Source: a virus. From it: 64,000 bases of DNA. Positions 1 through 59,696 of this stretch are shown in pieces (position 1 is the first letter of the stretch; every line of letters begins with the position of its first letter). Below the pieces are notes generated by a model that ran no database searches, was not told the DNA's origin, and saw nothing but the letters and a program-made list of their open reading frames with translations. Both the position numbers and the translations under genes were made by a program. The stretch spans positions 1-64,000 of the IMG/VR virus record IMGVR_UViG_3300030419_003532; one strand, written 5' to 3'.

Positions 1-123
1 CTTTGGCGTTATGATAGTAATTCTTTTCTTTTCTATTGCCCAAGATTTGAGTAGGGCTTGGCTCTTATTTAATTTATCTTGCTTGATAAATCGCCACATT
101 CTTATAAAAATTCTCTGTCTCAT
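1..123 (-). CDS. Partial small basic protein, runs off left edge
   Basis: A leftward frame starts at the ATG ending at 123 and stays open to the window edge (41 codons seen), so its C-terminus is missing. The start overlaps the stop of the gene upstream as ATGA, which suggests translational coupling. The visible part is rich in Arg, Lys and Ile and has no motif I recognise. The overlapping rightward frame at 79-294 is a hydrophobic shadow. Function unknown. Confidence 0.5.
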   Translation of the reverse strand, partial: MRQRIFIRMWRFIKQDKLNKSQALLKSWAIEKKRITIITPK

Positions 124-278
124 AATGTATTTTTAATTATTTCCAACCTGTCTTTAGTAGTCAAAGAGTACCATAAATCTTCATATTTTATCTTTTGTGT
201 TGTCCCGTCTGTAAAAGTTATTATGCAGATTTCCCCAAGTTTTACTCTGTCTATTTCTTTGTCTTTTATTATATCCAT
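120..278 (-). CDS. 52-aa hypothetical protein
   Basis: ATG at 276-278, stop TGA at 120-122, 52 residues. The sequence reads like a small beta domain (VKLGEICIITFTDGTTQKIKYEDLW) of a kind common among phage early proteins. The stop overlaps the start of the next leftward gene. It is the first gene after the gene-free region on its left side, and the only promoter-like box I found for it is the leftward one at 986-993, which would give a leader of about 700 nt. Function unknown. Confidence 0.5.
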   Translation of the reverse strand: MDIIKDKEIDRVKLGEICIITFTDGTTQKIKYEDLWYSLTTKDRLEIIKNTL

Positions 279-513
279 TTTAGTAATTTCTTAAAAGCTT
301 TTCTACCAAAAGGAATGCAAATAATACAGGTAAAAAAGGTATGATTATTAATGCTTTGTATACTGTTTTTAGAGTCTTCATATCTGTTTGTTTTGATACT
401 GCAAGTATAAGGAATAAATAACAAATGAAAAGATTTGTAAGTGCTTGATAATCAGTGAGTTAGGGGCTTATATGACACTATGACATGGCTATTATTGGTG
501 CAAATTGGTGATT

Positions 514-522
514 TGTGGATAA
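514..522 (-). promoter_or_regulatory. DnaA-box-like site 1
   Basis: The plus strand reads TGTGGATAA, the exact complement of the bacterial DnaA consensus TTATCCACA. It lies between the first and second TTGATAATCA repeats. It is a candidate target for host DnaA or for the phage DnaA domain IV protein. Confidence 0.5.
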
Positions 523-668
523 AAAATGTGCAAATTAACTACCTGATAATCAATAAGTTAGGGGGTTTTATGCTATAAAATGCTAGATATTACTATTGAT
601 TTTGTACTAAAAGCAAAGAAATTATAATAAATTTATAAGACAATTTGACAGGTTATTAACATTATTTG

Positions 669-677
669 TGTGGATAA
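669..677 (-). promoter_or_regulatory. DnaA-box-like site 2
   Basis: A second exact TGTGGATAA, in the same orientation as the first, a few bases before the third TTGATAATCA repeat. Near matches with one mismatch (TGTGGGTAA at 909-917, TTTGGATAA at 1020-1028) face the same way. One such 9-mer could arise by chance in AT-rich DNA, but a same-facing cluster in a gene-free region is less likely to. Confidence 0.5.
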
Positions 678-962
678 CTTAACTGCTTGATAATCAGCAC
701 TATAAGTAGTGAATGAGCTAAGTGTTTGATAATCAATGAGTTACAGGCTTATTGTAATGCGTTCTAATGCAATATCTGTAATTCTTAATGGTAATATACT
801 AGAGGAAGGGTTAAGTCCTTTATATGCGTTCTATTGGCTTCGTATGAGTTTTCATTATATAACAAATTAAATGAGATGTGCAAATGATTTGGGTAAAAGT
901 TATGAACATGTGGGTAATTTAGATTAGTTCTAATTAAGAGGGGGATAAATTCCCTGCTCTGA

Positions 963-993
963 TTAGCTCAATCGTATTGACTAAACAAATATA
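963..993 (-). promoter_or_regulatory. Leftward promoter-like box with hairpin at predicted 5' end
   Basis: CAAATATA at 986-993 is TATATTTG on the minus strand, a full match to the Bacteroidetes -7 box TAnnTTTG. No clear TTG box lies at the right distance upstream. Just downstream on the minus strand, 963-984 forms a hairpin (TTAG/CTAA and TCAAT/ATTGA with one bulge, loop of 3). A transcript from here would begin at this hairpin and run through the repeats toward 278. Confidence 0.4.
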
Positions 994-1282
994 AATCCGT
1001 GACGTGTGAGCTGTTAATGTTTGGATAAAATACATAGAGATAATTAAGGGGCTTTATATTATATATATTGTATATAAATGGATGATATATGCAGTAGATT
1101 ATTCCGTTTCGTTTTCCCCTTTTGTATTTTAGTTTGAAGTATTACGGAATTGGGAGAATTAGGGTACCCCCTAAATTGATTTCGTTTTAGTAATCGTAAC
1201 TAATATTGGGATATTGTATATTACCCCAAACCTACGTACATCTCACATCATTTTCATACCCACCCGTTGTATATATATTTAT

Positions 1283-1322
1283 ATATTTATTTATTTATTT
1301 ATGGGATTCCCGTGGGATATGC
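1283..1322 (-). promoter_or_regulatory. Hairpin plus ATAAATAAATA element, copy A (divergent)
   Basis: On the minus strand this reads a short GGGAATCCC hairpin followed by CATAAATAAATAAATAAATA. It matches the other two copies (43318 and 61830) through the hairpin and the ATAAATAAATA tail, with about four changes on the other side. Unlike those, no gene follows it: the next minus-strand frame is only a few codons. It lies just beyond the terminator of the 1370-2960 genes. Confidence 0.45.
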
Positions 1323-1330
1323 TGTGGTAT

Positions 1331-1352
1331 AAAAAAAGCCCCATATAGGGGC
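1331..1352 (-). terminator. Rho-independent terminator of the leftward 1370-2960 genes
   Basis: GCCCC (1338-1342) and GGGGC (1348-1352) form a 5-bp GC stem with an ATATA loop. On the minus strand it is followed by seven T. It lies 18 bases past the last leftward gene and ends that transcript. Confidence 0.85.
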
Positions 1353-1369
1353 CTAAAAGAGCGTAAATA

Positions 1370-1492
1370 CTAATCTTTGTATAGTGCGTATATTTTTGCT
1401 CCTTTAACTTCTCTGATGAGAACTTTTCTTACGTTTTCATCATTAGTTTTAGTTCGTGCTTTTTTAGCTCTTATGCGTGAATTTCTACTCAT
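1370..1492 (-). CDS. 40-aa basic protein
   Basis: ATG at 1490-1492 and TAG at 1370-1372 give 40 residues, N-terminally very rich in Arg and Lys (SRNSRIRAKKARTKT) and ending ALYKD. It is the last gene before the terminator at 1331-1352 and starts directly after the gene at 1494-1703. A nucleic-acid-binding role fits its charge but is only inferred. A rightward frame over the same bases is a shadow. Confidence 0.55.
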   Translation of the reverse strand: MSRNSRIRAKKARTKTNDENVRKVLIREVKGAKIYALYKD

Positions 1493-1493
1493 T

Positions 1494-1703
1494 TTATTTT
1501 CCGCAGCCGCAGCCAGCTTGTTTTGCTCTCTTAATAGAATCTCTTCTCAAGTCGCTATCAGGCATATTAGCTATCTCTGCACATAAATTTTTACACTTCT
1601 CTGCTTGAGTTGTTCCTGAATAACCTTCTCCTAGTTTAGTTCTAAAAGATGTTGTATCTGATGGGGCTACTGGCACCCCTTTTCCTGGTTCGTTAATTGC
1701 CAT
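1494..1703 (-). CDS. 69-aa hypothetical protein with CGCGK tail
   Basis: 69 residues with a polar N-terminus (EPGKGVPVAPSDTTSF), a helical middle carrying KCKNLCAEI, and a C-terminal GCGCGK. Four Cys in two pairs (C-x3-C and C-x-C) could bind a metal. It is part of the leftward chain of small genes from 2960 to 1370. I do not recognise the family. Confidence 0.55.
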   Translation of the reverse strand: MAINEPGKGVPVAPSDTTSFRTKLGEGYSGTTQAEKCKNLCAEIANMPDSDLRRDSIKRAKQAGCGCGK

Positions 1704-1705
1704 AA

Positions 1706-1915
1706 TTATTTAATATTAGATTTTAAGTAGTCTGCTATTTCTACATTTATTTTACCAGATTCTACTTGTTGATTAATTTGTTTTATTCTAGACTCTACAT
1801 ATTCTCCATGTACTTTATCTATATGATTTTGTATATCATTTAATCTTTGTTCAGTACCTGCTGTGCGACCTATATTTGAGTCTACGTTTCTTAATTTACC
1901 TTTTATATGTCCCAT
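1706..1915 (-). CDS. 69-aa helical protein
   Basis: A predicted all-helical, charged 69-residue protein (QRLNDIQNHIDKVHGEYVESRIKQINQQVESG), probably a short coiled coil. Its ATG overlaps the TAA of the 24-residue gene upstream (TAATG), suggesting coupling. No known domain seen. Confidence 0.6.
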   Translation of the reverse strand: MGHIKGKLRNVDSNIGRTAGTEQRLNDIQNHIDKVHGEYVESRIKQINQQVESGKINVEIADYLKSNIK

Positions 1916-1989
1916 TATTTTTTGCTTTTTTTATATAAATTAGTGTTAGAAGACATTTTTTTTGGTTTTCTTTTTTTTCTTTTAGACAT
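1915..1989 (-). CDS. 24-aa Lys/Arg-rich microprotein
   Basis: ATG at 1987-1989, TAA at 1915-1917. More than half of the 24 residues are Lys or Arg, concentrated in the first eleven. The stop overlaps the next start, so it sits cleanly in the chain of coupled small genes. The charge suggests nucleic-acid binding or DNA neutralisation. It is too short for homology to be decisive. Confidence 0.45.
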   Translation of the reverse strand: MSKRKKRKPKKMSSNTNLYKKSKK

Positions 1990-2004
1990 AGTTACTTTTT
2001 TTAT

Positions 2005-2259
2005 TTATGATTCAGTTGATTTTTTCTTTAAATAATCTTGTGCGGTTGCAAAATTTTCAAGAGGATTAACATAAGTGTACTCTTTTTTGCTATCCTTACC
2101 TATATTTAATTTCATTGCTGATACTCTATTAGATAAAGCCGTAGCTTCTTCTATAGCTAATTTTGTTCCACGAACATATTCATTATATTCGGCCATACTT
2201 CCGTTTGGATTAACTTGTTGCCATTGCTCCCATGTTATTAAACCGCTTCCAGTACTCAT
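2005..2259 (-). CDS. 84-aa protein with VNPxGSMAxYNEYVR motif, paralogue 1
   Basis: 84 residues. The N-terminal part carries W-x2-W-x2-VNPNGSMAEYNEYVR, which also occurs in the upstream neighbour, so the pair probably arose by duplication and then diverged over the C-terminal half. The start overlaps the stop of that neighbour by four bases (ATGA). No known family. The neighbourhood of tiny basic proteins hints at minor virion components, which is inference. Confidence 0.65.
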   Translation of the reverse strand: MSTGSGLITWEQWQQVNPNGSMAEYNEYVRGTKLAIEEATALSNRVSAMKLNIGKDSKKEYTYVNPLENFATAQDYLKKKSTES

Positions 2260-2540
2260 AATTCAGGGAAATTTAATGTTTTTTTACTAAATTTTTTACT
2301 TGCTATTGTTATAACGCCTCCCTCTGGAGGTAACCCATATTTAGAATGAGAAAGGGGTTTGGTTCTGGGGTCATCAGTACTTGTACCTTCTATTATCATT
2401 TTATTTACAATATTCCCAGTTGTAGGGAAATTTACAGCTTTTACATTTTTAATTTTTAACTTATGTCTACGAACATATTCGTTATATGCTGCCATGCTCC
2501 CTCCAGGGTTTACTTTTGACCATTCTTCATAATTTAACAT
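2256..2540 (-). CDS. 94-aa protein with VNPxGSMAxYNEYVR motif, paralogue 2
   Basis: 94 residues opening with EEWSKVNPGGSMAAYNEYVR, the motif shared with the next gene downstream. The remainder differs: a linker rich in Pro, Thr and Asp and a C-terminal beta-like stretch (GVITIASKKFSKKTLNF). It is coupled to its paralogue by an ATGA overlap. Function unknown. Confidence 0.65.
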   Translation of the reverse strand: MLNYEEWSKVNPGGSMAAYNEYVRRHKLKIKNVKAVNFPTTGNIVNKMIIEGTSTDDPRTKPLSHSKYGLPPEGGVITIASKKFSKKTLNFPEL

Positions 2541-2542
2541 AT

Positions 2543-2836
2543 CTATACTTTTCTTTTACCTGTTGAACGTGTTTTTCTATTAGATGGATAATTATGTGCT
2601 ACACCTTTACGTCTACCACCTTCTCCTTTACCACCTCTATTTTTACTCTTCTTTCTACATGTCAAGTTAGATGCAGTGTTGTTCCTAGGATTACCATCTT
2701 TATGGTGAACTTCATATCCAGGAGGACATTTCTTTTTCCTATTTGCTGCATTTCTTGCTGCTCTATCTTTCTTAGCTTTAGCAGAAGACTGGAATTTTTT
2801 ATATTCCGCTTTATAATCTCTTTTAGCGTGTGGCAT
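2543..2836 (-). CDS. HNH-like basic protein
   Basis: 97 residues, about a third Lys or Arg. The centre has CPPGYEVHHKDGNPRNNTASNLTC, the H-N-H type signature (HH-x-DGNPxNN-x3-NL) of a common small phage family found near head genes. The flanks are charged helices and a basic tail. It may bind or nick DNA; the short HNH core makes real nuclease activity uncertain. The ATG overlaps the TAA of the 21-residue gene upstream. Confidence 0.75.
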   Translation of the reverse strand: MPHAKRDYKAEYKKFQSSAKAKKDRAARNAANRKKKCPPGYEVHHKDGNPRNNTASNLTCRKKSKNRGGKGEGGRRKGVAHNYPSNRKTRSTGKRKV

Positions 2837-2901
2837 TATCTTTTACATTTACAAGGTTTCCTCTTACATGTAGTACATACTTTATTGCATCCGCACCCCA
2901 T
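2836..2901 (-). CDS. 21-aa six-cysteine microprotein
   Basis: ATG at 2899-2901, TAA at 2836-2838. Six of 21 residues are Cys (3, 5, 9, 12, 17, 19) in a C-x-C, C-x2-C, C-x-C pattern mixed with Lys and Arg, like a mini metallothionein or zinc knuckle. Its start and stop both overlap the neighbouring genes as TAATG, the arrangement seen along this whole chain, which argues for real translation. Confidence 0.5.
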   Translation of the reverse strand: MGCGCNKVCTTCKRKPCKCKR

Positions 2902-2960
2902 TATCTTCTACCTTTACTTTTAACTTTCCCACCTTTTCTTTGATATTTTCTTTTTGGCAT
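2901..2960 (-). CDS. 19-aa Lys/Arg/Gly-rich microprotein
   Basis: ATG at 2958-2960, TAA at 2901-2903; 19 residues, ten of them Lys or Arg. First gene of the leftward chain, about 30 bases after the promoter box at 2990-2997 and behind an AT-rich leader. It could be a DNA-condensing peptide or a leader peptide. Confidence 0.45.
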   Translation of the reverse strand: MPKRKYQRKGGKVKSKGRR

Positions 2961-2989
2961 AATTATATATTTTAATAATTAGTAATACG

Positions 2990-2997
2990 CAAATATA
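2990..2997 (-). promoter_or_regulatory. Leftward promoter, -7 box TATATTTG
   Basis: CAAATATA on the plus strand is TATATTTG on the minus strand, matching the Bacteroidetes -7 consensus. It lies just upstream of the first gene of the 2960-1370 chain and back to back with a rightward box at 3042-3049. The upstream TTG box is not obvious. Confidence 0.6.
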
Positions 2998-3041
2998 ATG
3001 ATTTTTTTATTAACATCATAGTTTTATATTGTTTTTATTAC

Positions 3042-3309: not shown

Positions 3310-3578
3310 TGGAAATATCACAAGGATTAATTAGAAAAGTAATAGTAACAGCTGGAGATAGAGATATAACTTATGTTAAAGGACAAACAATTGCTAATGG
3401 AGCAATTAAAATTGTAGATATAAATTTTGATACTGCATATGCAGAACACTTTGGAGAGGGTAGATATAATATCTACGTCATACCTAATAAAGAAAACTAC
3501 GTTAGATTATGGAAATCTATTCCCTCTACTAAGTGTGTTCCAGAATATGACTTATCGTTAGAACCTCAATTAAAATGA
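3309..3578 (+). CDS. 89-aa hypothetical protein
   Basis: The ATG at 3309 overlaps the previous stop as TAATG and is preferred; an in-frame ATG at 3303 would add two residues. A predicted small beta-rich protein (GLIRKVIVTAGDRDITYVKGQTI ... YNIYVIPNKENYVRLWKSI). The end overlaps the GroES-like gene by four bases. I do not recognise the family. Confidence 0.65.
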   Translation: MEISQGLIRKVIVTAGDRDITYVKGQTIANGAIKIVDINFDTAYAEHFGEGRYNIYVIPNKENYVRLWKSIPSTKCVPEYDLSLEPQLK

Positions 3579-4147
3579 AAATAACACCTATAGGAGATTT
3601 CGTTTATGTAGAGCTAGAAAGGGAAGAAGAGAATGTTGTTAAACTTCCTAATGGTAAAGAGTTGTGGCTAGATACTAGTTATGATAGATATGTTAATGCT
3701 AGACAATACGGTATAGTTAAAATGACATCTATAAATATAAATAAAAGAGTAAAAGATAATTTAACTCTAAAAGAAGGAGATAAGGTTTATTTCCATCATC
3801 ATGTAATAGATGAAAGGATGGCTAGTGAATTTGGAGGAGAGAATATATATAAAGTTCATTATGACCAGATATATTGTTATGTTAGAGATAATAAAATAAC
3901 AATGACTCAAGACTATGTATTTGTAGAGCCAATTAAGTCAGAAGATAAAATAAAAAACCTATATGTTCAATCTAAAGAATCAACTAAAAGAGGGAAGGTT
4001 GCTTATGTAAATAAATTTTCTAAAGATGAAGGGTTTGGTATAGGAGATGAAATAATGTTTCTAAAGAATGCTAACTATGATATGATTATTGAAGGAGAAA
4101 GATTGTTTAGAATGAAAAATAATGAGATAATATGCAAGATAGCGTAG
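3575..4147 (+). CDS. Tandem GroES-like co-chaperonin
   Basis: 190 residues holding two Cpn10-like beta barrels in one chain. Residues 1 to about 107 have ITPIGDFVYVELE, a mobile-loop-like LPNGKELWLD segment, YGIVKM and LKEGDKVYFHHHVID. Residues about 108-190 repeat the plan with ITMTQDYVFVEPIK, KRGKVAYVNK and GFGIGDEIMFLKN. Phages such as T4 (gp31) use their own GroES-like protein with host GroEL to fold capsid protein. The fold is read from sequence pattern; partnership with GroEL is inferred. It lies upstream of the packaging and head genes. Confidence 0.75.
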   Translation: MKITPIGDFVYVELEREEENVVKLPNGKELWLDTSYDRYVNARQYGIVKMTSININKRVKDNLTLKEGDKVYFHHHVIDERMASEFGGENIYKVHYDQIYCYVRDNKITMTQDYVFVEPIKSEDKIKNLYVQSKESTKRGKVAYVNKFSKDEGFGIGDEIMFLKNANYDMIIEGERLFRMKNNEIICKIA

Positions 4148-5002: not shown

Positions 5003-5416
5003 TTAGAATCGGTAAGATAATCCGATATTAAATTTTCCTTCTCTTTCTCCGTTTTCATCTTCTTTTAATCCCATACTGTAGTTAGGTTCTATATTTAAAC
5101 CTTTCCATACAGACATAGAATAACCTACACCAATAGTTAGATTATCCATCATCTCTTCTGTTGGTGCTTGTCCAGAGATATACATTTTATCATTCATAAG
5201 GTATCTACCAAATAAATCATAATCTTCTCCGTTTTTTACAAAACCAAGTACCATCTTATCGTTCATCTGATAACCGATACCCATGTTGTCTGTAAAGTTA
5301 CTCATCTCCCAACTAGCAGTATCTGCAGGTTGACTTACAGTAGTGACTACCATAAATTGTGCAGAGGCCAGTAAAGTTGAGCAAGCCGTAATAATTGTTA
5401 AAATTGTTTTCTTCAT
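5003..5416 (-). CDS. Exported small outer-membrane barrel-like protein
   Basis: 137 residues with a signal peptide (MKKTILTIITACSTLLASAQ, cleavage likely after AQ). The mature part has alternating beta strands (MVLGFVKNGEDYDLFGRYL ... LTIGVGYSMSVWKGLNIEPNYSMGL) and ends with KFNIGLSYRF; the C-terminal Phe is typical of Omp85/BAM substrates. Phage-made outer-membrane proteins may alter receptors or block superinfection. It shares a leftward transcript with structural-type proteins, so a virion role remains possible. Confidence 0.65.
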   Translation of the reverse strand: MKKTILTIITACSTLLASAQFMVVTTVSQPADTASWEMSNFTDNMGIGYQMNDKMVLGFVKNGEDYDLFGRYLMNDKMYISGQAPTEEMMDNLTIGVGYSMSVWKGLNIEPNYSMGLKEDENGEREGKFNIGLSYRF

Positions 5417-5508
5417 TTTTGTAATGTTTAATGTTAATAAATAGAAGAGCTACCCTTAAAGTTAATTAAAGATAGCTCTTGTTGATTGTTGTTTAATAAT
5501 TTGTTCTA

Positions 5509-5874
5509 TTATGATACTGACCAATACCCGTATTCAACTACACATGCCCCTCCATAAGCCTCAGCTGTTACAGCCTGACTACTATATAAAGGAAGCCAAG
5601 TAAATTCTCCTACTCTTAGCTTTAATTTTGCGTCTCCTCCAAGTTTTACTTGAAGAAAATCTGTTGTATTAGCTCCAGAAACTACTTTTATATATACATA
5701 TGAAAAAGCAGAGTTGCTAGGAATTAATGCTTGTGCTGACCCTGTAGCTATTGATGTTCTTGCTGAATTAACAGAAGGTTTAGTTACTGTTAAAGAATCA
5801 GTTACAGTGATACTTAAAGCATCAGAAGTTGAATCTGCATTAGTTATTATTAATGTTGGTTTTAATGTTGCCAT
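5509..5874 (-). CDS. Beta-rich structural protein, paralogue 1
   Basis: 121 residues starting MATLKPTL, Ser/Thr/Val/Ala-rich and predicted all beta, ending VVEYGYWSVS. It aligns along its length with the protein at 5898-6260 (same MATLKPTL start, DLSVT/ALSIT strand, VEYG-x-W end). Such proteins are typical phage head or tail decoration proteins. High predicted expression fits its strong A-rich leader. Function by class only. Confidence 0.65.
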   Translation of the reverse strand: MATLKPTLIITNADSTSDALSITVTDSLTVTKPSVNSARTSIATGSAQALIPSNSAFSYVYIKVVSGANTTDFLQVKLGGDAKLKLRVGEFTWLPLYSSQAVTAEAYGGACVVEYGYWSVS

Positions 5875-5897
5875 GTCTATTCTGTTTTTTTAATTAG

Positions 5898-6260
5898 TTA
5901 TAATACGTGCCAAAATCCGTACTCAACTTCTGTTGTTGCACTAAGAGCAATAACTTCTACTCCAGTACTTGCTTTACAAGGGAAGAACATAAATTCTCCT
6001 CCATCTAATTCTGAAAATACAGAGTCATCTACCATTCTTACGTTTATTGCATTAGATGCATCCATATTTTTAATGTATATATAACATCTTACAGCTACAG
6101 AGTTTGATATTAATTCAGTTGCAGCTCCTGTAGTTACATCTACTCTAGCCATACTGATATTAGGCTCTCCAGTAGTTAATGTATCTGTTAACGTAACACT
6201 TAAATCGTCAGAAGTAGCATCAGAACTTGTTAATGTTAATGTTGGTTTTAACGTTGCCAT
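5898..6260 (-). CDS. Beta-rich structural protein, paralogue 2
   Basis: 120 residues, a tandem paralogue of the protein at 5509-5874 sharing the N-terminal MATLKPTL, the middle segment TGAATEL/TGSAQAL and the C-terminal VEYGFW. Identity is clearly below half outside these blocks, so the duplication is not recent. Probably a decoration or minor virion protein encoded with 6285-7274. Confidence 0.65.
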   Translation of the reverse strand: MATLKPTLTLTSSDATSDDLSVTLTDTLTTGEPNISMARVDVTTGAATELISNSVAVRCYIYIKNMDASNAINVRMVDDSVFSELDGGEFMFFPCKASTGVEVIALSATTEVEYGFWHVL

Positions 6261-6284
6261 TTTTTCTAATTTTTTAAGTTAATA

Positions 6285-7274
6285 TTATTCTACTATATTT
6301 GTTGCGTCTGTTGAACCTACCACATTAGAAAGGGTATCGTTTATCACTAAAGTGTCCCAGCTGTTTTTACCCATTCCTTTTATTTTTAAATAAGTTTTAG
6401 ACCCAGACTCGTAAGCACTTGCTACACAAGTAAGTCTTACTATTCCAGAAGATGATACGTCTGGAAAACTAACAGTTCTACCGTTTACCGTTAAACTTTC
6501 AAAATTCTCAGGCCCTCCCAATGCACCAATGTGATTTATAAATTTAGCAAGAGTTCCTCCAGAATTTAAAGAAGTCTCTAACTCTAATACATCAACAAAA
6601 GGAGAATCTAAACCAGCCATGTTTGTGTTAGAAGCATCGTAAAAAGTTTTCCAGTCATCACTTCCGCCATCATATGATAACATAACTCTGTGAGTATTTA
6701 TTACCATGTTGTTATCAGTTCCAGAATAAGCTACTCCATTTTTTTCATTGCAGTCTACAATTAATAGGTTTTGAGATAATGCTTGAACTGTATCTCCTGC
6801 ATGATTTTGTCTGATAAGACCTCTATTTACGATAATATCAACAGGTCTTCCATTGTTAGTTGTATCAGCGTAAATAATTTGTCCTTCAATTTTAAAAACA
6901 TTTGGTGTGTCAGAAGTACCGTCAGCAGCAATATTCTGAACGCTTCCACCCAAAGTATCTGAAACAGTAATAGTATCAGCTGTTGGAACAGTTTTAACGA
7001 AATATACTCTGTTAGCAAGAACGTTTGTAGCCTCACATTCTGCATCAAAATATATAGCATCGTTCACTTGTAGTCCATGTCCAGTAATAGTAATAGTGTC
7101 ACCAGAATCTGTTTGAGCAGAAACCGCTTTTCCTAAATTAGTTTCTGTGTCAAAAGCATAGATGATTTTGTTTACATCTATACCCATAGTGTTGTACCCA
7201 GTAGTTCCGTCACCAGCATCGCTGAAATCTTCGTGACCGTACTTTTTTACAGGCACCGAAATAAAATTTGCCAT
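6285..7274 (-). CDS. Structural protein with HGLxxxDxxY domain
   Basis: 329 residues, all-beta in character. Near residues 45-105 is a phage fibre or decoration motif (ITITGHGLQVNDAIYFDAE ... NRVYFVKTVPTADTITVSDT), also recognisable in the protein at 42378-43037. First gene of the leftward unit driven from 7315-7322. Likely a virion surface protein, with the C-terminal half (AGLDSPFVDVLELETSL ...) of unknown fold. Confidence 0.7.
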   Translation of the reverse strand: MANFISVPVKKYGHEDFSDAGDGTTGYNTMGIDVNKIIYAFDTETNLGKAVSAQTDSGDTITITGHGLQVNDAIYFDAECEATNVLANRVYFVKTVPTADTITVSDTLGGSVQNIAADGTSDTPNVFKIEGQIIYADTTNNGRPVDIIVNRGLIRQNHAGDTVQALSQNLLIVDCNEKNGVAYSGTDNNMVINTHRVMLSYDGGSDDWKTFYDASNTNMAGLDSPFVDVLELETSLNSGGTLAKFINHIGALGGPENFESLTVNGRTVSFPDVSSSGIVRLTCVASAYESGSKTYLKIKGMGKNSWDTLVINDTLSNVVGSTDATNIVE

Positions 7275-47427: not shown

Positions 47428-47796
47428 ATGTATTCTTATAAAATAAAATTAGATAGAGTAGTTGATGGGGATACTATTGATGCTTATATAGACTTAGGCT
47501 TTGATGTTTCAATAAAAAAAAGAATTAGATTTATGGGGATTAATACTCCTGAATCAAGAACTAGAGATTTAGAAGAAAAAGCAAGAGGTTTAGCTGCTAA
47601 AGATAGAGTTAAACAATTATTAGAGGGAGCTAATTTAATAAAATTAGATTCTCACGGAGTCGGAAAATATGGAAGATGTCTAGGAGAATTACATATAGAT
47701 GTAGTAGATGGGCAAGAAAAAATGACGTTAGAAAGTATAAATGAATTATTAATTAAAGAGGGTCATGCTGTAGAGTATCATGGCGGTAAAAGATGA
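47428..47796 (+). CDS. Staphylococcal-nuclease-like protein
   Basis: 122 residues of the SNase fold: VDGDTIDAYIDLGFDV, RIRFMGINTPESRTRDLEEKARGLAAKD, and KYGRCLGELHID. The catalytic Arg of RIRF and of KYGRCLGE and the Glu of TPES are present; the Asp usually found in GIDTPE is Asn (GINTPE), seen in some phage members. No signal peptide, so it acts in the cytoplasm unless released at lysis. Likely cuts host or competitor DNA. Confidence 0.75.
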   Translation: MYSYKIKLDRVVDGDTIDAYIDLGFDVSIKKRIRFMGINTPESRTRDLEEKARGLAAKDRVKQLLEGANLIKLDSHGVGKYGRCLGELHIDVVDGQEKMTLESINELLIKEGHAVEYHGGKR

Positions 47797-47971
47797 TGTT
47801 ATGATAAACTGGATAAATAGTTGGAAGTCAGGTAATAAAAGAGAAAAATATAATATTGAGTTAAGATTAGGTAGGTTTACTTTACTTGAAATAAAATTTT
47901 GTGTTTGTACAATTCCTTGTGATTGTGCTCGTTTTAGAATGATAGTATTAAATTTTGGATTTGAGTTATGA
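47780..47971 (+). CDS. 63-aa hypothetical protein
   Basis: Overlaps the end of the nuclease gene by 17 bases; an in-frame ATG at 47801 would remove most of the overlap and give 56 residues. It overlaps the next gene by four bases. Basic N-terminus and an apolar Cys-rich C-terminus (FTLLEIKFCVCTIPCDCARFRMIVLNFG). Not recognised. Confidence 0.5.
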   Translation: MAVKDDVMINWINSWKSGNKREKYNIELRLGRFTLLEIKFCVCTIPCDCARFRMIVLNFGFEL

Positions 47972-50751
47972 AAAAAATATTATTTTTATTATTATTAATT
48001 CCTTTGTTTGTATTTACGCAAACAAAAGAAACTATTATTCATATAAACACAGATAACTACCCACAGGAAACTAGATGGGTATTACACGCTGATAGTTTGT
48101 ATGGAGCTATATTAGGACAAGTAAACTATGGATATTATACAATTCCAGACTCAGCTTATGCAGATACTCTATATATACCAGATAGTCTAACAAATATTAC
48201 GTTTGTAATATATGATAGTTACGGAGACGGGATGTCTCCTCCAGGAAGTTATTACGTTTCTATATGTAATGATACTATAGTTAGCTATCCAAACCCTTCC
48301 TTTACAACAGGGTTGTATTCTAACAGGATGGTACCTCAATGTATGCCTAACCCTCCTCCATCTGGGAATTGTGTTCCTTCAGTTCTAAATATAAACTTAG
48401 ACCAATTCCAAAGCGAAACAACTTGGGAGATACATGATTCAACAGGAACTTTACTGTACGCAGGAGGCCCTTATTCACAAGCCCCTGATTATCAACCTCA
48501 ATACGAGAATTTATGCTTACCTGTAGGAGAACTCACCCTAACCATGTATGATTCTTATGGTGACGGGTTAGCTGGTAGCTTGTGGGGAGGGAATGATGGC
48601 TCATATTATCTCATGCAATGTGGGGACACCTTAGTTTATGGAGATGTTCCAAACTTTGGCACCGATACCCTACATGTATTTCAATCTGACACATGTTTGC
48701 CTCCACCACCAGTACCAGGATGTATGGATGAAAATTACGTGGAATATAATCCGCTAGCTACAGTTGATGATGGTAGCTGTTCAATCCTTAAAATATACGG
48801 ATGTACAGATAGTACAATGTTTAACTATGACCCATTAGCTAACACAATGGATTATGTTGATAGTTGTATGTATACTTTAATATTGTATGATTTAGCTGGA
48901 AACGGATGGATAGGAAGCAGATTAGATATTATGCAAGATGATACCACATCTTATTATTTAACTAGTGGTTTTTTACAAACATACACATTAAATTTAAAAT
49001 CCCCAGAAGAAGTCAGAGCAAAATTCTTTATTAACGCTCAAGCTTCAATGACATCCATAGAATGTGGGTTTAGTTTAATTAGTTCTACTGGAGATACCGC
49101 CATACATGTTCCTGGAGGTTTTTCAAATCCTATATTACCTTTTTATGAATATTCAGGAACTACATATTGCGGAAATGAATGTATTCCTATTGTAACAGGA
49201 TGTATGGATACTATAGCTTATAATTATAATAATTTAGCTAATACTAATGACATTTGTTATTATAATCCTGGATGCACTTCTCCTGCTTACTTAGAATACT
49301 ATACACAAGGATTTACAGCAGATGTAGATGATGGTAGTTGTAGTATTTTAGCTGTATTTGGATGTACAGACAGTACTTCTTTTAATTATAACTCATTAGC
49401 TAACGTGGATAACGGTGGATGTATTCCTGTAATAACAGGGTGTATGAATCCATTAGCTTTTAATTATAATGCTTTAGCTAATACTCCAGATACATGTATA
49501 TCTATAATTTACGGATGTACAAACCCTTTAGCTTTTAATTTTGATTCTTTAGCTAATACTGACGATGGAAGCTGTATAGCTATTATTTATGGCTGTACCG
49601 ATAGCACAATGTTTAATTTTATGCCTAGTGCAAATATAGACGACAGTTCTTGCGTGCCTTATATATATGGGTGTATGGATGCTACTATGTGGAATTATAA
49701 TTCTCAAGCAAATACTGATAATGGTAATTGTATCCCATTTATGTATGGTTGTACTGATTCAACCATGTTTAATTATGACCCGTTAGCAAATACAGATAAC
49801 GGCACCTGTGAACCTTTTGTATATGGATGCACAAATCCAATTGCTTTAAATTATAATCCACAGGCAAATACAGATGATTTCTCCTGTATATTACCAATCT
49901 ATGGATGTATGGATTCTACAGCATTTAATTATGACCCTTTAGCTAATGTAGATAACGGAAGTTGTATCCCTATAATATTAGGATGTACTAATCCGATAGC
50001 ACTTAATTATTGTGATACCTGTAATACTGATGATTTTAGTTGTATACTTCCGATATATGGTTGTACTGATAGTACTATGTTTAATTATAATCCTTTAGCC
50101 AATGTTGATAACAATTCTTGCGTTCCTTTTATCTATGGTTGTACTGACCCTTCTATGCTCAACTACAATCCACAAGCTAATACAGAAGATTTTAGTTGTA
50201 TTGCTTATATTTATGGTTGTACCGATAGCACTGCTCTTAACTATGACCCGTTGGCTAATACTGACAATGGTTCGTGTGTGGCTGTGGTTGAAGGATGTAT
50301 GGATGCAAATGCCTACAACTACGACATTACGGCTAATGTTAATGACTCTGCTTCTTGCTTATATAATGCTAATTGTATCACTGGTGCGGGTAATCCTTAT
50401 TGGCTCAATGACCCTTGTTATGCCTGGGTAATATCAGTAGATGATTATTGTTGTGAGAATGAATGGGATAATATATGTCAGCTAACTTATAATTATTGTG
50501 ACAATAATTGGACTGGAGCACAACCTCCAGCTAGAACAAACGCAGATAATATATTTGTTTACCCAAATCCAACAAATAATATTTTATATATTAATAAAAC
50601 TGTTGATTTAGAAGTTTATAACAGTATTGGAGAATTAATTATAAAAAGTAATGGAAATATGGTTGATTTATCTGATTATAGTAATGGAATTTATAATATT
50701 ATGATTATATTTGAAGGTAATAATAATACCTACAAAATTATAAAAAGATAA
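47968..50751 (+). CDS. Secreted repeat protein with T9SS C-terminal sorting domain
   Basis: 927 residues. A signal peptide (MKKILFLLLLIPLFVFTQ) is followed by two YDSYGDGM/YDSYGDGL domains (about 20-240). About 17 Cys-bounded repeats of 22-27 residues follow (about 248-795; GCTD ... FNYDPLAN ... DNGSC). Next is a Cys-rich segment (NPYWLNDPCYAWVISVDDYCC) and a classic type A T9SS sorting domain from VYPNPTNNILYIN to GIYNIMIIFEGN and KR at the C-terminus. In Bacteroidetes such tails send proteins through the outer membrane to the cell surface. Finding one in a phage implies use of the host T9SS. Confidence 0.85.
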   Translation: MKKILFLLLLIPLFVFTQTKETIIHINTDNYPQETRWVLHADSLYGAILGQVNYGYYTIPDSAYADTLYIPDSLTNITFVIYDSYGDGMSPPGSYYVSICNDTIVSYPNPSFTTGLYSNRMVPQCMPNPPPSGNCVPSVLNINLDQFQSETTWEIHDSTGTLLYAGGPYSQAPDYQPQYENLCLPVGELTLTMYDSYGDGLAGSLWGGNDGSYYLMQCGDTLVYGDVPNFGTDTLHVFQSDTCLPPPPVPGCMDENYVEYNPLATVDDGSCSILKIYGCTDSTMFNYDPLANTMDYVDSCMYTLILYDLAGNGWIGSRLDIMQDDTTSYYLTSGFLQTYTLNLKSPEEVRAKFFINAQASMTSIECGFSLISSTGDTAIHVPGGFSNPILPFYEYSGTTYCGNECIPIVTGCMDTIAYNYNNLANTNDICYYNPGCTSPAYLEYYTQGFTADVDDGSCSILAVFGCTDSTSFNYNSLANVDNGGCIPVITGCMNPLAFNYNALANTPDTCISIIYGCTNPLAFNFDSLANTDDGSCIAIIYGCTDSTMFNFMPSANIDDSSCVPYIYGCMDATMWNYNSQANTDNGNCIPFMYGCTDSTMFNYDPLANTDNGTCEPFVYGCTNPIALNYNPQANTDDFSCILPIYGCMDSTAFNYDPLANVDNGSCIPIILGCTNPIALNYCDTCNTDDFSCILPIYGCTDSTMFNYNPLANVDNNSCVPFIYGCTDPSMLNYNPQANTEDFSCIAYIYGCTDSTALNYDPLANTDNGSCVAVVEGCMDANAYNYDITANVNDSASCLYNANCITGAGNPYWLNDPCYAWVISVDDYCCENEWDNICQLTYNYCDNNWTGAQPPARTNADNIFVYPNPTNNILYINKTVDLEVYNSIGELIIKSNGNMVDLSDYSNGIYNIMIIFEGNNNTYKIIKR
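48715..50364 (+). repeat. Seventeen in-frame GCTD/DNGSC repeats
   Basis: About 17 units of 66-81 bases coding GC[TM][DN] ... NYxPLAN ... D[DN]GSC. Early units are irregular and later units are regular and alternate between STMFNY-type and NPIALNY-type, which suggests duplication of two-unit blocks. Nucleotide identity between units is moderate, so the array is not newly expanded. Confidence 0.8.
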
Positions 50752-50755
50752 TGTT

Positions 50756-50815
50756 ATGGCTTATTATATAGGTAAAGAAGCTTTAGACACAAAGGTTGAT
50801 GGAATTGAATTATAA
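50756..50815 (+). CDS. Possible 19-aa microprotein
   Basis: ATG at 50756 to TAA at 50815, 19 residues (AYYIGKEALDTKVDGIEL), filling the gap between the T9SS-type gene and 50822 with six bases to spare. It lacks strong composition bias, so the evidence is mainly the tight fit. Confidence 0.3.
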   Translation: MAYYIGKEALDTKVDGIEL

Positions 50816-50821
50816 AATAGT

Positions 50822-51172
50822 ATGGCAAAAAAATATGCAAAAATAACAGGAAATTCAGCACAGATATTAGTTGCTAGGCAAAAAGTTGCAAACACAACAA
50901 CAAAAGGATTCACCAGAACATTTAGTGGGAAAACTATAGTTGGAATGTCTTTATGTAATATACATGCTACAGATTCTGTGGATGTAGACTTATTCATATA
51001 TGACGCTGCAAATACTACAGAAATAGCTAGGATTTTACACAATAAAACAATAGAAGCTGGAACAACTTTGTTTTTAGAAGGGCATGAAGTTTCTTTTAAT
51101 AACGGAAAGGATTATGATTTAAGAATACAATTAAGTGCTGCAGATAGTGCTGTTGATGTTATAATAAGATAA
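50822..51172 (+). CDS. Putative decoration protein
   Basis: 116 residues, predicted beta sandwich (KTIVGMSLCNIHATDSVDVDLFIYDAANTTEIARILHNKTIEAGTTLFLEGHEVSFNNGKDYDLRIQL). This strand pattern occurs in many small marine phage structural proteins. It precedes the lysis genes. Function by class only. Confidence 0.6.
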   Translation: MAKKYAKITGNSAQILVARQKVANTTTKGFTRTFSGKTIVGMSLCNIHATDSVDVDLFIYDAANTTEIARILHNKTIEAGTTLFLEGHEVSFNNGKDYDLRIQLSAADSAVDVIIR

Positions 51173-51187
51173 ATTAAAAAATAAATT

Positions 51188-51580
51188 ATGAGTATACTAA
51201 CAAAAATATTTTCGGCTGGAGCTAGCGATTTAGTAAAAAATGTAGGTGGAGTTATAGATAATCTACATACTTCTAAAGAAGAAAAGCTTGAAGCTGAAAG
51301 AAAAATTAAAGACATGATAATGGGTTACGAAGCTGAGATGCAAAAGCAAGTAACCGAAAGATGGAAAGTAGATATGCAATCTGATTCATGGCTTTCAAAA
51401 AATATAAGACCTATGGTTTTAATATTCTTAGTAGTATCTACAGTATTATTAATTTTTATTGATGCTGGGATAATACAATTTGAAGTTAAGGCTTCTTGGG
51501 TGGATTTATTACAGCTCGTTTTAATTACTGTAATTGGAGCATACTTTGGAGGTAGGTCGCTTGAAAAGGTTAAAAAATGA
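51188..51580 (+). CDS. Holin of the GTA 3TM type
   Basis: 130 residues. An N-terminal amphipathic part and coiled coil (SKEEKLEAERKIKDMIMGYEAEMQKQ) precede the family signature SDSWLSKNIRPMV and two clear membrane helices (VLIFLVVSTVLLIFIDAGII; LLQLVLITVIGAYFGG), ending in SLEKVKK. It resembles the GTA_holin_3TM family (PF11351). It would open the inner membrane for the wall enzyme encoded next, with which it overlaps by four bases. Confidence 0.75.
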   Translation: MSILTKIFSAGASDLVKNVGGVIDNLHTSKEEKLEAERKIKDMIMGYEAEMQKQVTERWKVDMQSDSWLSKNIRPMVLIFLVVSTVLLIFIDAGIIQFEVKASWVDLLQLVLITVIGAYFGGRSLEKVKK

Positions 51581-52047
51581 AATTAAAAGTATTAAGATTT
51601 AGTAGTCAGGAAGACTCAACTTCAGGAGCATTATTTAAAGAGCGTGATGATAGTAATTTAGAGTTCCTATGTTACACATTAGAAGACGAGCATAGAGATA
51701 GTAAAATACGTGGCGAGACAAGAGTGCCTGCTGGTATTTATAATATAAAATTAAGAACTGAAGGCGGTTTTCATGAAAGATATAAAAAAAGGTTTTCTAG
51801 TATACATAAAGGAATGTTACACGTCACTGAAGTACCAGGTTTTGAGTACATCCTTATACATACTGGTAATACTGATGAACATACTGCTGGATGCCTTCTT
51901 GTGGGTGATTCACAGGAAAACAATATTATCGTCAAAGATGGTTTTATTGGAAAATCCACTAATGCGTACAAAAGAATATATCCAGATATTGCTAGAGCAA
52001 TTGAAAAAGGAGAAGAGGTTATTATAGAATATATAGATTTAGCTTAA
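51577..52047 (+). CDS. DUF5675 protein, candidate wall-active enzyme
   Basis: 156 residues matching the DUF5675 pattern: LEFLCYTLEDEHRD, TRVPAGIYNIKLRTEGG, and YILIHTGNTDEHTAGCLLVG. The His ... GC motif (IHTGNTDEHTAGC) looks like the catalytic motif of L,D-transpeptidase folds. The family is common beside phage holins, and here it is coupled to one, so an endolysin or wall-binding role is plausible. The family has no proven activity that I know of. Confidence 0.7.
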   Translation: MKLKVLRFSSQEDSTSGALFKERDDSNLEFLCYTLEDEHRDSKIRGETRVPAGIYNIKLRTEGGFHERYKKRFSSIHKGMLHVTEVPGFEYILIHTGNTDEHTAGCLLVGDSQENNIIVKDGFIGKSTNAYKRIYPDIARAIEKGEEVIIEYIDLA

Positions 52048-52048
52048 A

Positions 52049-56035: not shown

Positions 56036-57790
56036 TTAGTAGGGTAATAAATTTTCACTAATGTTAACTAAATCTTCTAGCGGATAATCTCCTGTAAATG
56101 TTTTAAATCTATTTGAAAGCCTGTCATATCTTAATTTGATAGGGTTCCCAGTTGGTACTCCTACTAATTTTTGAAATTTTATTTTCTGAACGTGTATATC
56201 TACAGTTGTGTCAGAAAAATCTTTTGGGTTAGGCCTATGAACAGTTATTATATTATCCGCTTTATTAAACCAGTTACTTCCACCTGCTATTCTGTATGCT
56301 GTAGGAACCTCATTGTCTCCAGAGCCTTTATCACTTCTCATAGTTATAGGGTGTGCTACAACCATAAATTTAAGATGATAGTTTTTCGTAAATTTTCTAA
56401 TTTTATTTAATGTATCCGCTACATATATAGCTTCTGTCATTCCTCTAAAATCATGGTCTATCTGATTAAACGGGTCAATCAAAACCCCTTTTATACCTTT
56501 TCTTAAAACTAAATGTTTAAATTTATCAAGTATATTACTCAGGGTAAAACTATCTTCTGGATATACAATAAAGAAATGTTTATTGACAAATTTCATCCCT
56601 CTAGAATACTCTGTCATACTCATTCTTCGTTTAGACTCAATATCAGAAGTTTTTCCTATATACATTTCAACCAATGTCTCGTACAGCTCTCCTATAGGAT
56701 AATTCTCTGGAGAAAAAACACCCCATTTCCACCCATATAATATAGAGCCATTCATCATAAGTTGAAAACAAAATGAGGTTTTCCCATGACCAGGTATTCC
56801 TGTAAAGACATCAAATTCTCCCATCCTGAAAGTGTAGTGTGGATTTAAATCATCGTAACCAGTGGTGTCCCCTTTTTTCTTACCATTATGATAAGAATCT
56901 ATCATCATATCTTCAACGTCAGAAACAGAAAATACTCCATCTACTGGATAATCCCTAGCGTTATTATAGCACTCTAGCAGTTTATCTTTACCATAATTTA
57001 CTAGAACATCATTTGCATCTTTACAATTTTCTGGAAAATCAATAATCATTATCCTTTCCTTCCCTAGTCTTCTAGCTAATTCTTCAAGCAACCTTCTTCC
57101 GTTTACATCATTATCTACTGCTATAAATATATTATCCATACTCTCAAAATATCTATGACAATTATCAAGATAAGAGAATTTAGTTTCTACATTTTTAGCA
57201 TTAGGATTAGGAGCTCCATCTGGAACGCTCACCGTTTCTGTTTTACCTATAACGTCAAAAGATAATTTATCAATTTCTCCCTCAACAATTATACAGGTGT
57301 TAGTATCTTTAATATCATCCAGACCATAAAATATTTTTTCTGCCCCAGCAACTTGTTTAAAATTCTTATCTCCATCTCTGTATTTTATATTTATTAACTC
57401 TCCATCTCTATAATAGTTAAAACAAATACAATTTCTGTTTTTCTCAACTTGAGGCATATATATACTGCACTCTGTAACCTTATTTCTTTCAAGAATACTT
57501 TTAGAAATACCTCTTTTATCAAAATACTCTACAATCTTACTAGGAAGAACTCTCTTCTTTATAAGCTTTGGTTTTGTGTACTGTTTATTATCCATTAATT
57601 TATCTTTAATAACCCCAGACCAAGCACAGTGATGACATGTGAACAAGCCTGTATCAGTATTTATAGCTAAACAAGGTTCTTTCTTCTTTTTTCTTTGGTG
57701 AGAACATCTAGGACATACAGCCTTAACTTCAGAAGACCATCTTCCTTTATAGGTTATTCCAAAGTCTGAAAGAAGGCTTCTGTCTATCAT
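56036..57790 (-). CDS. Bifunctional primase-helicase
   Basis: 584 residues, T7 gp4-like. Zinc finger CPRC ... CHHC (about 22-57); TOPRIM primase with IIVEGEIDKLSFDVIG (near 164) and IAVDNDVNGRRLLEELARRLG (near 222); RecA-type helicase with Walker A GIPGHGKTSF (near 328) and Walker B GVLIDPFNQID (near 440), then VVAHPITMR and GGSNWFNKADNIITVHR. It unwinds and primes the phage fork. Start overlaps the DUF4373 gene by four bases. Confidence 0.88.
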   Translation of the reverse strand: MIDRSLLSDFGITYKGRWSSEVKAVCPRCSHQRKKKKEPCLAINTDTGLFTCHHCAWSGVIKDKLMDNKQYTKPKLIKKRVLPSKIVEYFDKRGISKSILERNKVTECSIYMPQVEKNRNCICFNYYRDGELINIKYRDGDKNFKQVAGAEKIFYGLDDIKDTNTCIIVEGEIDKLSFDVIGKTETVSVPDGAPNPNAKNVETKFSYLDNCHRYFESMDNIFIAVDNDVNGRRLLEELARRLGKERIMIIDFPENCKDANDVLVNYGKDKLLECYNNARDYPVDGVFSVSDVEDMMIDSYHNGKKKGDTTGYDDLNPHYTFRMGEFDVFTGIPGHGKTSFCFQLMMNGSILYGWKWGVFSPENYPIGELYETLVEMYIGKTSDIESKRRMSMTEYSRGMKFVNKHFFIVYPEDSFTLSNILDKFKHLVLRKGIKGVLIDPFNQIDHDFRGMTEAIYVADTLNKIRKFTKNYHLKFMVVAHPITMRSDKGSGDNEVPTAYRIAGGSNWFNKADNIITVHRPNPKDFSDTTVDIHVQKIKFQKLVGVPTGNPIKLRYDRLSNRFKTFTGDYPLEDLVNISENLLPY

Positions 57791-58455
57791 CCTTTAAAGG
57801 CTTTATCAAAATCCTCCTTAGTCATATTATCGTAAGACTTTTCAGATACGACTGAATTATTATTTATTAGCTCATCATTCCAAGACTCATTTCTTAGATA
57901 AGTCTCTGGGTTTTTTCTGTATTTCTTATCAGGCTGTGCTTTTTTATATTTATCTATGTAATTTATCGCTTCTTCTTTTTTATCTTTTGAAAGTTTCTTC
58001 CATAAAGACTCGCATTTAGTTCTAGCGGTCTTCTTATCATATTCATCCCAAAATTCATCAAACCTATCTAGATTTCCCCATCTTTTCATAGATTTATCTT
58101 TCTGCATTTGATTTTTTTTGTCTCTGATGCTCAGTCTTTTAATCAAACTAGAAGACCAAAAGAAAGAGTCATCAGATTCAAAAAGAGAGAAAGAGTCCAC
58201 ACAATCTTTTATAAATTCAGATAATTTATCTGGATTAGTTTGCATTCTCTTTGATAATACAGAAAGATAACCTTTATTATTAATCGGTAGTCTGTATTCT
58301 TCCTCCATTGATAGTGTTTCTATGATAATCCAATAGAACCCATACCCTTCAGCACCCCATACAGACATCATGAGTTCTATTTTTATATCACTCCACGCAT
58401 CAGTGTCGTGTGAGAAATAAAACGATTTAGTTTTAGCCATCTCTTCAGCAGTCAT
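57787..58455 (-). CDS. DUF4373-type replisome organiser
   Basis: 222 residues. The N-terminal YFSHDTDAWSDIKIELMMSVWGAEGYGFYWIIIETLS is the DUF4373 (Lin1244-like) domain, a winged-helix-type module of phage replication proteins. The C-terminal part FDEFWDEYDKK ... KKAQPDKKYRKNPETYLRNESWNDE is common in helicase-loading proteins. Located directly upstream of the primase-helicase, it may load it at the origin. Confidence 0.75.
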   Translation of the reverse strand: MTAEEMAKTKSFYFSHDTDAWSDIKIELMMSVWGAEGYGFYWIIIETLSMEEEYRLPINNKGYLSVLSKRMQTNPDKLSEFIKDCVDSFSLFESDDSFFWSSSLIKRLSIRDKKNQMQKDKSMKRWGNLDRFDEFWDEYDKKTARTKCESLWKKLSKDKKEEAINYIDKYKKAQPDKKYRKNPETYLRNESWNDELINNNSVVSEKSYDNMTKEDFDKAFKG

Positions 58456-58791: not shown

Positions 58792-59106
58792 TTACATAAA
58801 CCCGTGTCTTTCTAATTTATTATATAGTTTTTTTACTTCTATTTTCCCTCTACCTGTTATTCCGTATAAGGCTTTAGTTTTATTCTTTCCGCCTCCTCCT
58901 TTTACCATATGTATTAATCCTAATTTTCTCAACCTTCTAATCCCTCTACTTATAGTTTCGCACCCATAAGGAACCTCTTTAACAACTTGATTATTGCTAA
59001 AAACTTCAGAATGATAAGCATATACTAAAATAAATACATAGCTAAACTTTAAGTCTAAGTCTTCTGATACTTTCTTCATTTCTAATCTGAGATATTTTAA
59101 ATTCAT
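58792..59106 (-). CDS. Winged-helix DNA-binding protein
   Basis: 104 residues; YGCETISRGIRRLRKLGLIHMVKGGGGKNKTKALYGITGRGKIEVKKLY gives a recognition helix followed by a wing, as in MarR/ArsR-like folds. Ends one base into the preceding DnaA-like gene. Could regulate the early operon or assist initiation. Confidence 0.65.
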   Translation of the reverse strand: MNLKYLRLEMKKVSEDLDLKFSYVFILVYAYHSEVFSNNQVVKEVPYGCETISRGIRRLRKLGLIHMVKGGGGKNKTKALYGITGRGKIEVKKLYNKLERHGFM

Positions 59107-59696
59107 TATACTAAGACCTCTTTACCAGTACAAAAAATTCTATGCCCATCTCCAGCACACATAAACCCTTCCTCTTCATACATCATATCGTCTCTAAATT
59201 CCCATCCTGAACCTTTTCTAACCCTGCCTTTAATATAAGTTCTTCCCCCTCTAGTCTCTATAGATTCATGCTCCCATATTATAGTGTTTTCTCCTTCTAT
59301 TCCATATTTTAAATGTAGTTTATCCCCTTTATTAACTCTCATAAACCAATTTATATCTACATAATCCCTTCTATTCAAACATAGGTTGTCACATATTGTG
59401 TTTAAATCTTCTTTAACCGCCTTGTTATATCTTAGCTCTGTTTCAACTATAGATACCCCATGCATTACTGTAGCATGATTATTAACGCTACCACGAAAAG
59501 CAAAAAAGTCTCTTATACCAACAAATGTATTGATATTTCCGTGATGTCTCATAATATACATAGCCATCTGTCTTGCTTTTGCTTGTAGTCTTTTTCTATT
59601 TCTAGCAAAAAACTGCTCTTCTGTTATTGAATAGTAGCTACAAACCTCAACCACTATATTATATAAATTGATTTTTCTTTTTTTCATTCTTTCCAT
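59106..59696 (-). CDS. Stand-alone DnaA domain IV protein
   Basis: 196 residues with no AAA+ motif. Residues about 12-100 follow DnaA domain IV: ICSYYSITEEQFFARNRKRLQAKARQMAMYIMRHHGN, IRDFFAFRGSVNNHATVMHGVSIVETELRYNKAVKEDL. The basic loop (RNRKR) and the recognition-helix block (here NNHATVMHG, cf. DHSTVxHA in DnaA) are clear. The C-terminal half is a beta domain of unknown role. It may bind DnaA boxes at 514 and 669 or compete with host DnaA. Confidence 0.8.
   Translation of the reverse strand: MERMKKRKINLYNIVVEVCSYYSITEEQFFARNRKRLQAKARQMAMYIMRHHGNINTFVGIRDFFAFRGSVNNHATVMHGVSIVETELRYNKAVKEDLNTICDNLCLNRRDYVDINWFMRVNKGDKLHLKYGIEGENTIIWEHESIETRGGRTYIKGRVRKGSGWEFRDDMMYEEEGFMCAGDGHRIFCTGKEVLV

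Follow-up and report, generated by a model that had tools for sequence, protein, structure and literature searches.

A palindrome array beside a promoter-like element as a candidate origin and early control region of a Bacteroidota phage

INTRODUCTION

In a phage genome from the IMG/VR collection a 1.1-kb gap between genes carries two perfect DnaA boxes, and the same phage encodes a protein with domain IV of DnaA. Is this gap an origin of replication and, if it is, are the boxes what makes it one? A first-pass annotation answered both parts with a tentative yes, envisaging a phage box-binding protein or recruited host DnaA. Comparison with relatives leads to a different emphasis. The constrained element is a set of interleaved palindromes with a promoter-like neighbour, and not the DnaA boxes. 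We infer both origin function and promoter activity for the region, that is an iteron-type phage origin combined with a leftward early promoter, at a probability of roughly one half.

THE PHAGE AND ITS INTERGENIC REGION

The stretch of DNA analysed, hereafter the window, comprises bases 1-64000 of IMG/VR record IMGVR_UViG_3300030419_003532, which is linear, without end repeats, and 64,587 bases long. Relatives of its terminase and helicase include phages of Flavobacterium, Cellulophaga, Maribacter and Tenacibaculum, so that the host is most likely a member of the marine Bacteroidota, a phylum whose phage origins are, to our knowledge, largely unmapped. The DNA of 279-1369 has no similarity to named phages, and an Rfam search of 1-3000 gave no match. 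A viral-contig search with the DnaA domain IV protein (P0001) as query returned no relatives, and these were gathered with the helicase as query instead. Six homologous regions were identified (G001, G004, G007, L161, L149 and L153). A GroES-like co-chaperonin gene (window positions 3575-4147) is kept upstream of the terminase in relatives.

Counted across the record ends, some 7 kb separate the region (Table 1) from the replication genes. The region had been described as gene-free, and it does hold the longest ORF-free stretch in the scan (295-1205), but a 33-aa leftward ORF begins at about 381, and relatives likewise start a leftward gene at its place. The hairpins attributed to it fared unequally: that at 921-980 folds better than its shuffles, with a GGGG..TCCC-type inverted repeat that recurs in homologous regions (the hairpin of L161 is weak, z -0.7), whereas the one at 1336-1354 is instead an intrinsic terminator. 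AT-rich DNA is also present as described, but the 15 least stable stretches of this genome do not include the tract, whose equivalent ranks as least stable of all in G001, G007 and L153.

Table 1. Features of the intergenic region and of the replication genes discussed, by position in the window
Feature	Position	Strand	Remarks
Intergenic region, candidate origin and early promoter	279..1369		flanked by the leftward early operon and by minus-strand genes 1377-2836
33-aa leftward ORF	280..381	-	transmembrane-like sequence; first gene past the promoter-like element; read directly from sequence
Conserved promoter-like element ATACTTGCA	400..409	-	TGCAAGTAT on the plus strand; reads leftward
Palindrome copy 1, TAAGTGCTTGATAATCAGTGAGTTA	438..462		1 mismatch to TAACTNNYTGATNATCARNNAGTTA
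Exact DnaA box TGTGGATAA	514..522	+	
Palindrome copy 2, TAACTACCTGATAATCAATAAGTTA	536..560		0 mismatches to TAACTNNYTGATNATCARNNAGTTA
Weak DnaA-box-like TTATTAACA	653..661	+	in a well conserved stretch; kept in L161, L149 and L153
Exact DnaA box TGTGGATAA	669..677	+	
Palindrome copy 3, TAACTGCTTGATAATCAGCACTATA	680..704		3 mismatches to TAACTNNYTGATNATCARNNAGTTA
Palindrome copy 4, TAAGTGTTTGATAATCAATGAGTTA	719..743		1 mismatch to TAACTNNYTGATNATCARNNAGTTA
One-mismatch box TGTGGGTAA	909..917	+	not conserved
Hairpin in partly conserved block	921..980	+	folds better than shuffles, z -2.8
One-mismatch box TTTGGATAA	1020..1028	+	not conserved
AT-rich tract, candidate unwinding element	1273..1304		
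Intrinsic terminator	1336..1354	-	of the minus-strand genes to its right
Primase/helicase	56036..57790	-	Toprim + DnaB-like
Lin1244_N replication initiation-like protein	57787..58455	-	
MarR-like winged-helix protein	58792..59106	-	start overlaps DnaA domain IV stop; only in this phage subgroup
DnaA domain IV protein (P0001)	59106..59696	-	with C-terminal beta-barrel domain

A PALINDROME ARRAY WITH A FIXED NEIGHBOUR

Four TTGATAATCA repeats had been reported to be interleaved with the boxes. All four are so interleaved; three are exact (445, 687 and 726), and the fourth, at 543, reads CTGATAATCA. The copies can be extended to 34 nt each, and the repeats are the cores of a 25-bp palindrome, TAACTNNYTGATNATCARNNAGTTA, whose spacing here is irregular (98, 144 and 39 nt). 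Palindromes with few mismatches are clustered at the homologous place in relatives too: G004 and L161 have four each, G007 has five to seven, L149 three, and L153 one clear copy. In the six homologous regions TGATNATCA was counted 22 times where 0.17 was expected; since both strands were counted, this corresponds to 11 places. G001, the nearest relative as judged from the replication proteins, is without the array and has two different dyads, TGACANNNTGTCA, instead (G001:26744-26790).

To the left of the array is the second conserved component, TGCAAGTAT on the plus strand, of which five of the six pooled regions hold a single copy (0.07 expected). Its distance to the first palindrome is exactly 38 nt in this phage (G000), L161, L149 and L153, the last keeping this spacing though the rest of its region barely aligns, and 29 nt in G007. 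The link fails in G004, where the sole copy of the element is to the right of the array. In this phage and its relatives the start of the leftward gene comes after the element, and read in that direction ATACTTGCA together with the first palindrome resembles a promoter that has a regulatory site upstream. The Bacteroidota-type promoter TTTG-N-TANNTTTG was also looked for and has no match within the region.

How widespread is such an arrangement? Pattern scans of viral contigs revealed palindrome clusters in 35 loci, which represent about 20 unrelated groups once close copies are removed. The sites are overwhelmingly outside coding ORFs (105 of 114), the commonest spacing across phages is 25-26 nt, i.e. 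copies are often tiled, and arrays reach 12 copies. One phage, G284, carries six clusters at separate places in its genome. In L459 (240-7432) pairs of palindromes about 50 nt apart occur between small variable ORFs every 0.6-2 kb, in a cassette-array-like manner. Beside the arrays of other phages the flank motif TACTTGCA was found twice (0.3 expected), too few for use, and in the literature searched for the palindrome sequence nothing relevant appeared. Since the array keeps its position in relatives and its motif is common to many unrelated phages, replication and early transcription probably start in this region.

SKEW, AND THE CASE FOR OPERATORS ONLY

Plus-strand GC3 skew ranges from -0.23 to -0.37 in the early operon, left of the region, and +0.31 in the late genes to its right. 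In the minus-strand genes 5003-7274 it is +0.06, the usual coding skew being lost, and so the skew partly tracks position rather than gene strand. This sign change around the region, together with a repeat array at the same place in relatives, makes the origin that had been proposed here plausible, but on another footing than its DnaA boxes. The skew check suggested for it gave a divided answer: the sign changes around the region, but when strand and position are fitted as separate terms the switch is at 3.5 kb in this phage and at 23.5 kb in G004, which is 2.9 and 2.5 kb to the right of the respective arrays. The raw cumulative minimum of this genome is 6.8 kb from the array. In 8 of the 11 array phages tested, no more than 4% of genome length separates the array from the cumulative GC-skew minimum (0.4 kb in G261 and 0.5 kb in G270, for instance), with several of the 11 interrelated and with gene-strand switches accounting for part of the skew minima; a strand-corrected fit falls near the array in G000, G004 and G255 alone, and in the others it is distant or uninformative. 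Unlike other late genes, the plus-strand genes 47428-52417 have a GC3 skew of -0.06, and this negative value suggests a replication terminus near 48 kb.

Might the palindromes serve the leftward early promoter, and other promoters in other phages, as operators or activator sites and nothing more, with the origin elsewhere, for example 2-3 kb rightward? We regard this, the chief rival reading, as somewhat unlikely. The fixed 38-nt distance to the promoter-like element with a gene start following, the corrected switch at about 3.5 kb and the six separate clusters of G284 are all what it would lead one to expect, and a 25-bp dyad fits a dimeric regulator, with a MarR-like winged-helix protein (structure match Z 13.2, rmsd 2.9, 100 aligned) encoded in the same operon. 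However, a single promoter has no need of arrays with as many as 12 copies, tiled every 25-26 bp and close to a skew minimum, and the recognition helix of the MarR-like protein does not follow array presence, being nearly alike in G000 and the array-less G001 and different in the array-bearing G007. This is an indirect sign against that protein, which was set aside as the palindrome binder. What this phage shares with known MarR operator and regulator pairs is a dimer-type palindrome and a MarR-like protein in one phage; it differs in that the helix does not follow the array, and the pairing here is a candidate only. A search near the arrays for a protein family common to the array-bearing phage groups found none.

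DnaA BOXES AND A STAND-ALONE DnaA DOMAIN IV

The model first put forward, an origin of DnaA boxes used by the phage domain IV protein or by host DnaA, now seems to us improbable, and much of what it was built on is nevertheless sound. The two exact and two one-mismatch TGTGGATAA sites, all on the plus strand, are there as reported (514, 669, 909 and 1020). The exact sequence occurs in 64 kb only at 514-522 and 669-677, and the Markov expectation of 0.86 for the whole record, or 0.014 for 1091 nt, makes such a pair in the region unlikely by chance. Counting sites, as had been advised, thus sustains enrichment for the exact class but not for the one-mismatch class, of which 21 were seen in the whole window against 22.5 expected. 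It is in the relatives that the boxes falter. In alignment the box at 514-522 reads TTTGGATAA in L161 and TTAGGATAA in L149, and that at 669-677 is kept in neither, the boxes at 909 and 1020 being lost likewise. The consensus box TTATCCACA is absent from all six homologous regions, those of phages keeping the domain IV protein included, and over 43 related records bearing that protein consensus boxes number 11, with 12 for a reversed control, which is chance level. MW202828, a more distant deposited phage, has domain IV proteins annotated as dnaA or replication initiation protein and yet a single TTATCCACA. With the exact boxes missing from every homologous region, DnaA boxes were rejected as a conserved origin element; the exact ones are a lineage-specific extra that host DnaA perhaps uses.

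Looser patterns are kinder to a DnaA-type model. The degenerate TTATNNACA has its highest density in this genome at 279-1369 and is present 13 times in the six regions (2.79 expected; 4 of 909 shuffled patterns do equally well), and TTATNAACA, a post hoc choice, was seen 9 times there with 1.24 expected (equalled by 3 of 831 shuffled patterns). The mild concentration of TTATNNACA and the conserved TTATTAACA, both noticed post hoc, leave room for a diverged target of the domain IV protein among these sequences.

What of the protein itself? That the phage encodes DnaA domain IV without the ATPase was borne out: the 196-aa P0001 matches Pfam Bac_DnaA_C (PF08299) with 45.5 bits (cut-off 31.5) and has no ATPase match, so that the AAA+ domain of a full DnaA initiator is missing. 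Residues 9-107 of its predicted structure share the fold of E. coli DnaA domain IV (PDB 1j1v; Z 16.4, rmsd 1.3, 94 of 94 aligned), and R34, R42 and H74, which correspond in that alignment to R399, R407 and H434, are invariant together with the start methionine across 25 homologs, a point in favour of box binding. In DnaA the TTA portion of the box is read by R399 in the minor groove, and the rest by the helix 434-451 with T435 (PMC5742627). With N in place of D433 and A in place of T435, the box specificity of P0001 is likely to be altered, to judge from these residues. P0001 differs from DnaA domain IV also in standing alone, fused to a C-terminal barrel, and in having some four more residues ahead of its recognition helix. 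The C-terminal domain (59106-59373, minus strand) is a predicted small beta barrel with a weak WYL/Sm-like match to CapW, BrxR and PafBC (Z about 5.5-5.7); a WYL identity was considered and set aside, there being no Pfam match and Z values under 6 for PafBC, CapW and BrxR being too weak to name it. The gene adjoins primase/helicase in 34 of 42 related records.

Nor does the domain IV protein follow the palindromes. It is encoded in 5 of 41 array-bearing records and in 13 of 39 control records with a single site, or about 6 of 42 and 12 of 38 once corrected for a control, L341, that itself holds a cluster; the fragmentary state of many of these records weakens the result without reversing it. 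Being rarer in array records, the protein has no positive association that would make it the palindrome binder. Stand-alone DnaA domain IV proteins are, as the same control records illustrate, common in IMG/VR phage contigs with one copy of the motif. The suggestion that boxes and protein support each other has therefore not survived: boxes are absent where the protein is kept, consensus boxes are at chance level, and the protein is unlinked to the arrays. Like bacterial oriC, the region has an AT-rich tract and two sites that match the consensus TTATCCACA, but it differs from oriC in boxes that are not kept between relatives and in a phage protein that is domain IV only, without AAA+ ATPase.

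THE PALINDROME IN BACTERIAL GENOMES

An exact scan of bacterial genomes gave, among the matches listed, mostly Bacteroidota contigs, and these were dominated by one Microscillaceae MAG. That genome (Prado074, G044, loci L539-L616) has 1395 copies with at most 1 mismatch across 6.8 Mb, dispersed, mostly between genes and without gene-orientation bias; other tested genomes hold one or two. In phylum-even samples any copy at all was found in 2 of 99 Bacteroidota and 1 of 100 Pseudomonadota genomes, two of these three positives being hand-picked centre genomes. This near absence means that the palindrome is phage-borne as a rule, and the idea of an ordinary host regulon site was rejected on the same ground. 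The dispersed copies of the Microscillaceae MAG and the pairs between small ORFs in L459 might suggest that the palindromes are REP-like repeats, mobile or structural, with no role of their own in the phage. This is very improbable given the conserved array position and fixed promoter-element distance in several phages and the scarcity of the motif in other sampled Bacteroidota genomes.

A CONTROL REGION AND ITS POSSIBLE WORKINGS

The reading preferred here, an iteron-type origin joined to an early promoter, may be envisaged as follows. The 1.1-kb region would act as control region for a podovirus-like phage of Bacteroidota, with the element at about 400-409 serving as leftward early promoter and the palindromes of 438-743 as the iterons of a replication origin whose conserved spacer blocks and AT-rich tract are to the right. 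A putative dimeric DNA-binding protein, which we infer to be probably phage-encoded, would bind the palindromes, open nearby DNA and load the phage primase/helicase, and the palindrome copy 38 nt from the promoter element could also tune early transcription. The domain IV protein would then be a separate conserved gene with a target other than this box cluster.

The lambda origin offers a precedent, with several imperfectly palindromic iterons inside the initiator gene, AT-rich DNA and a promoter nearby, and primase/helicase-loading genes in the early operon. An array of imperfect palindromic repeats, AT-rich DNA and a promoter close by, and primase/helicase-loading genes in an early operon are thus shared with lambdoid origins and their O-protein iterons. 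The present array differs in being intergenic rather than within an initiator gene, in its 25-bp sites, irregularly spaced here, and in a phage with no O homolog. More tentative than the reading of this one locus is its extension to an origin family new to description and common to many unrelated Bacteroidota phages, in which tandem TAACTNNYTGATNATCARNNAGTTA, often tiled at 25-26 bp, would be found near a GC-skew minimum and be served by a putative initiator.

A DnaA-domain protein and DnaA boxes in one genome are, alone, no evidence for a DnaA-type phage origin. A recognisable palindromic array, on the other hand, would serve to mark origins and early control regions in many phages known from metagenomes; it would also lead towards a missing initiator or regulator and supply origin parts for Bacteroidota.
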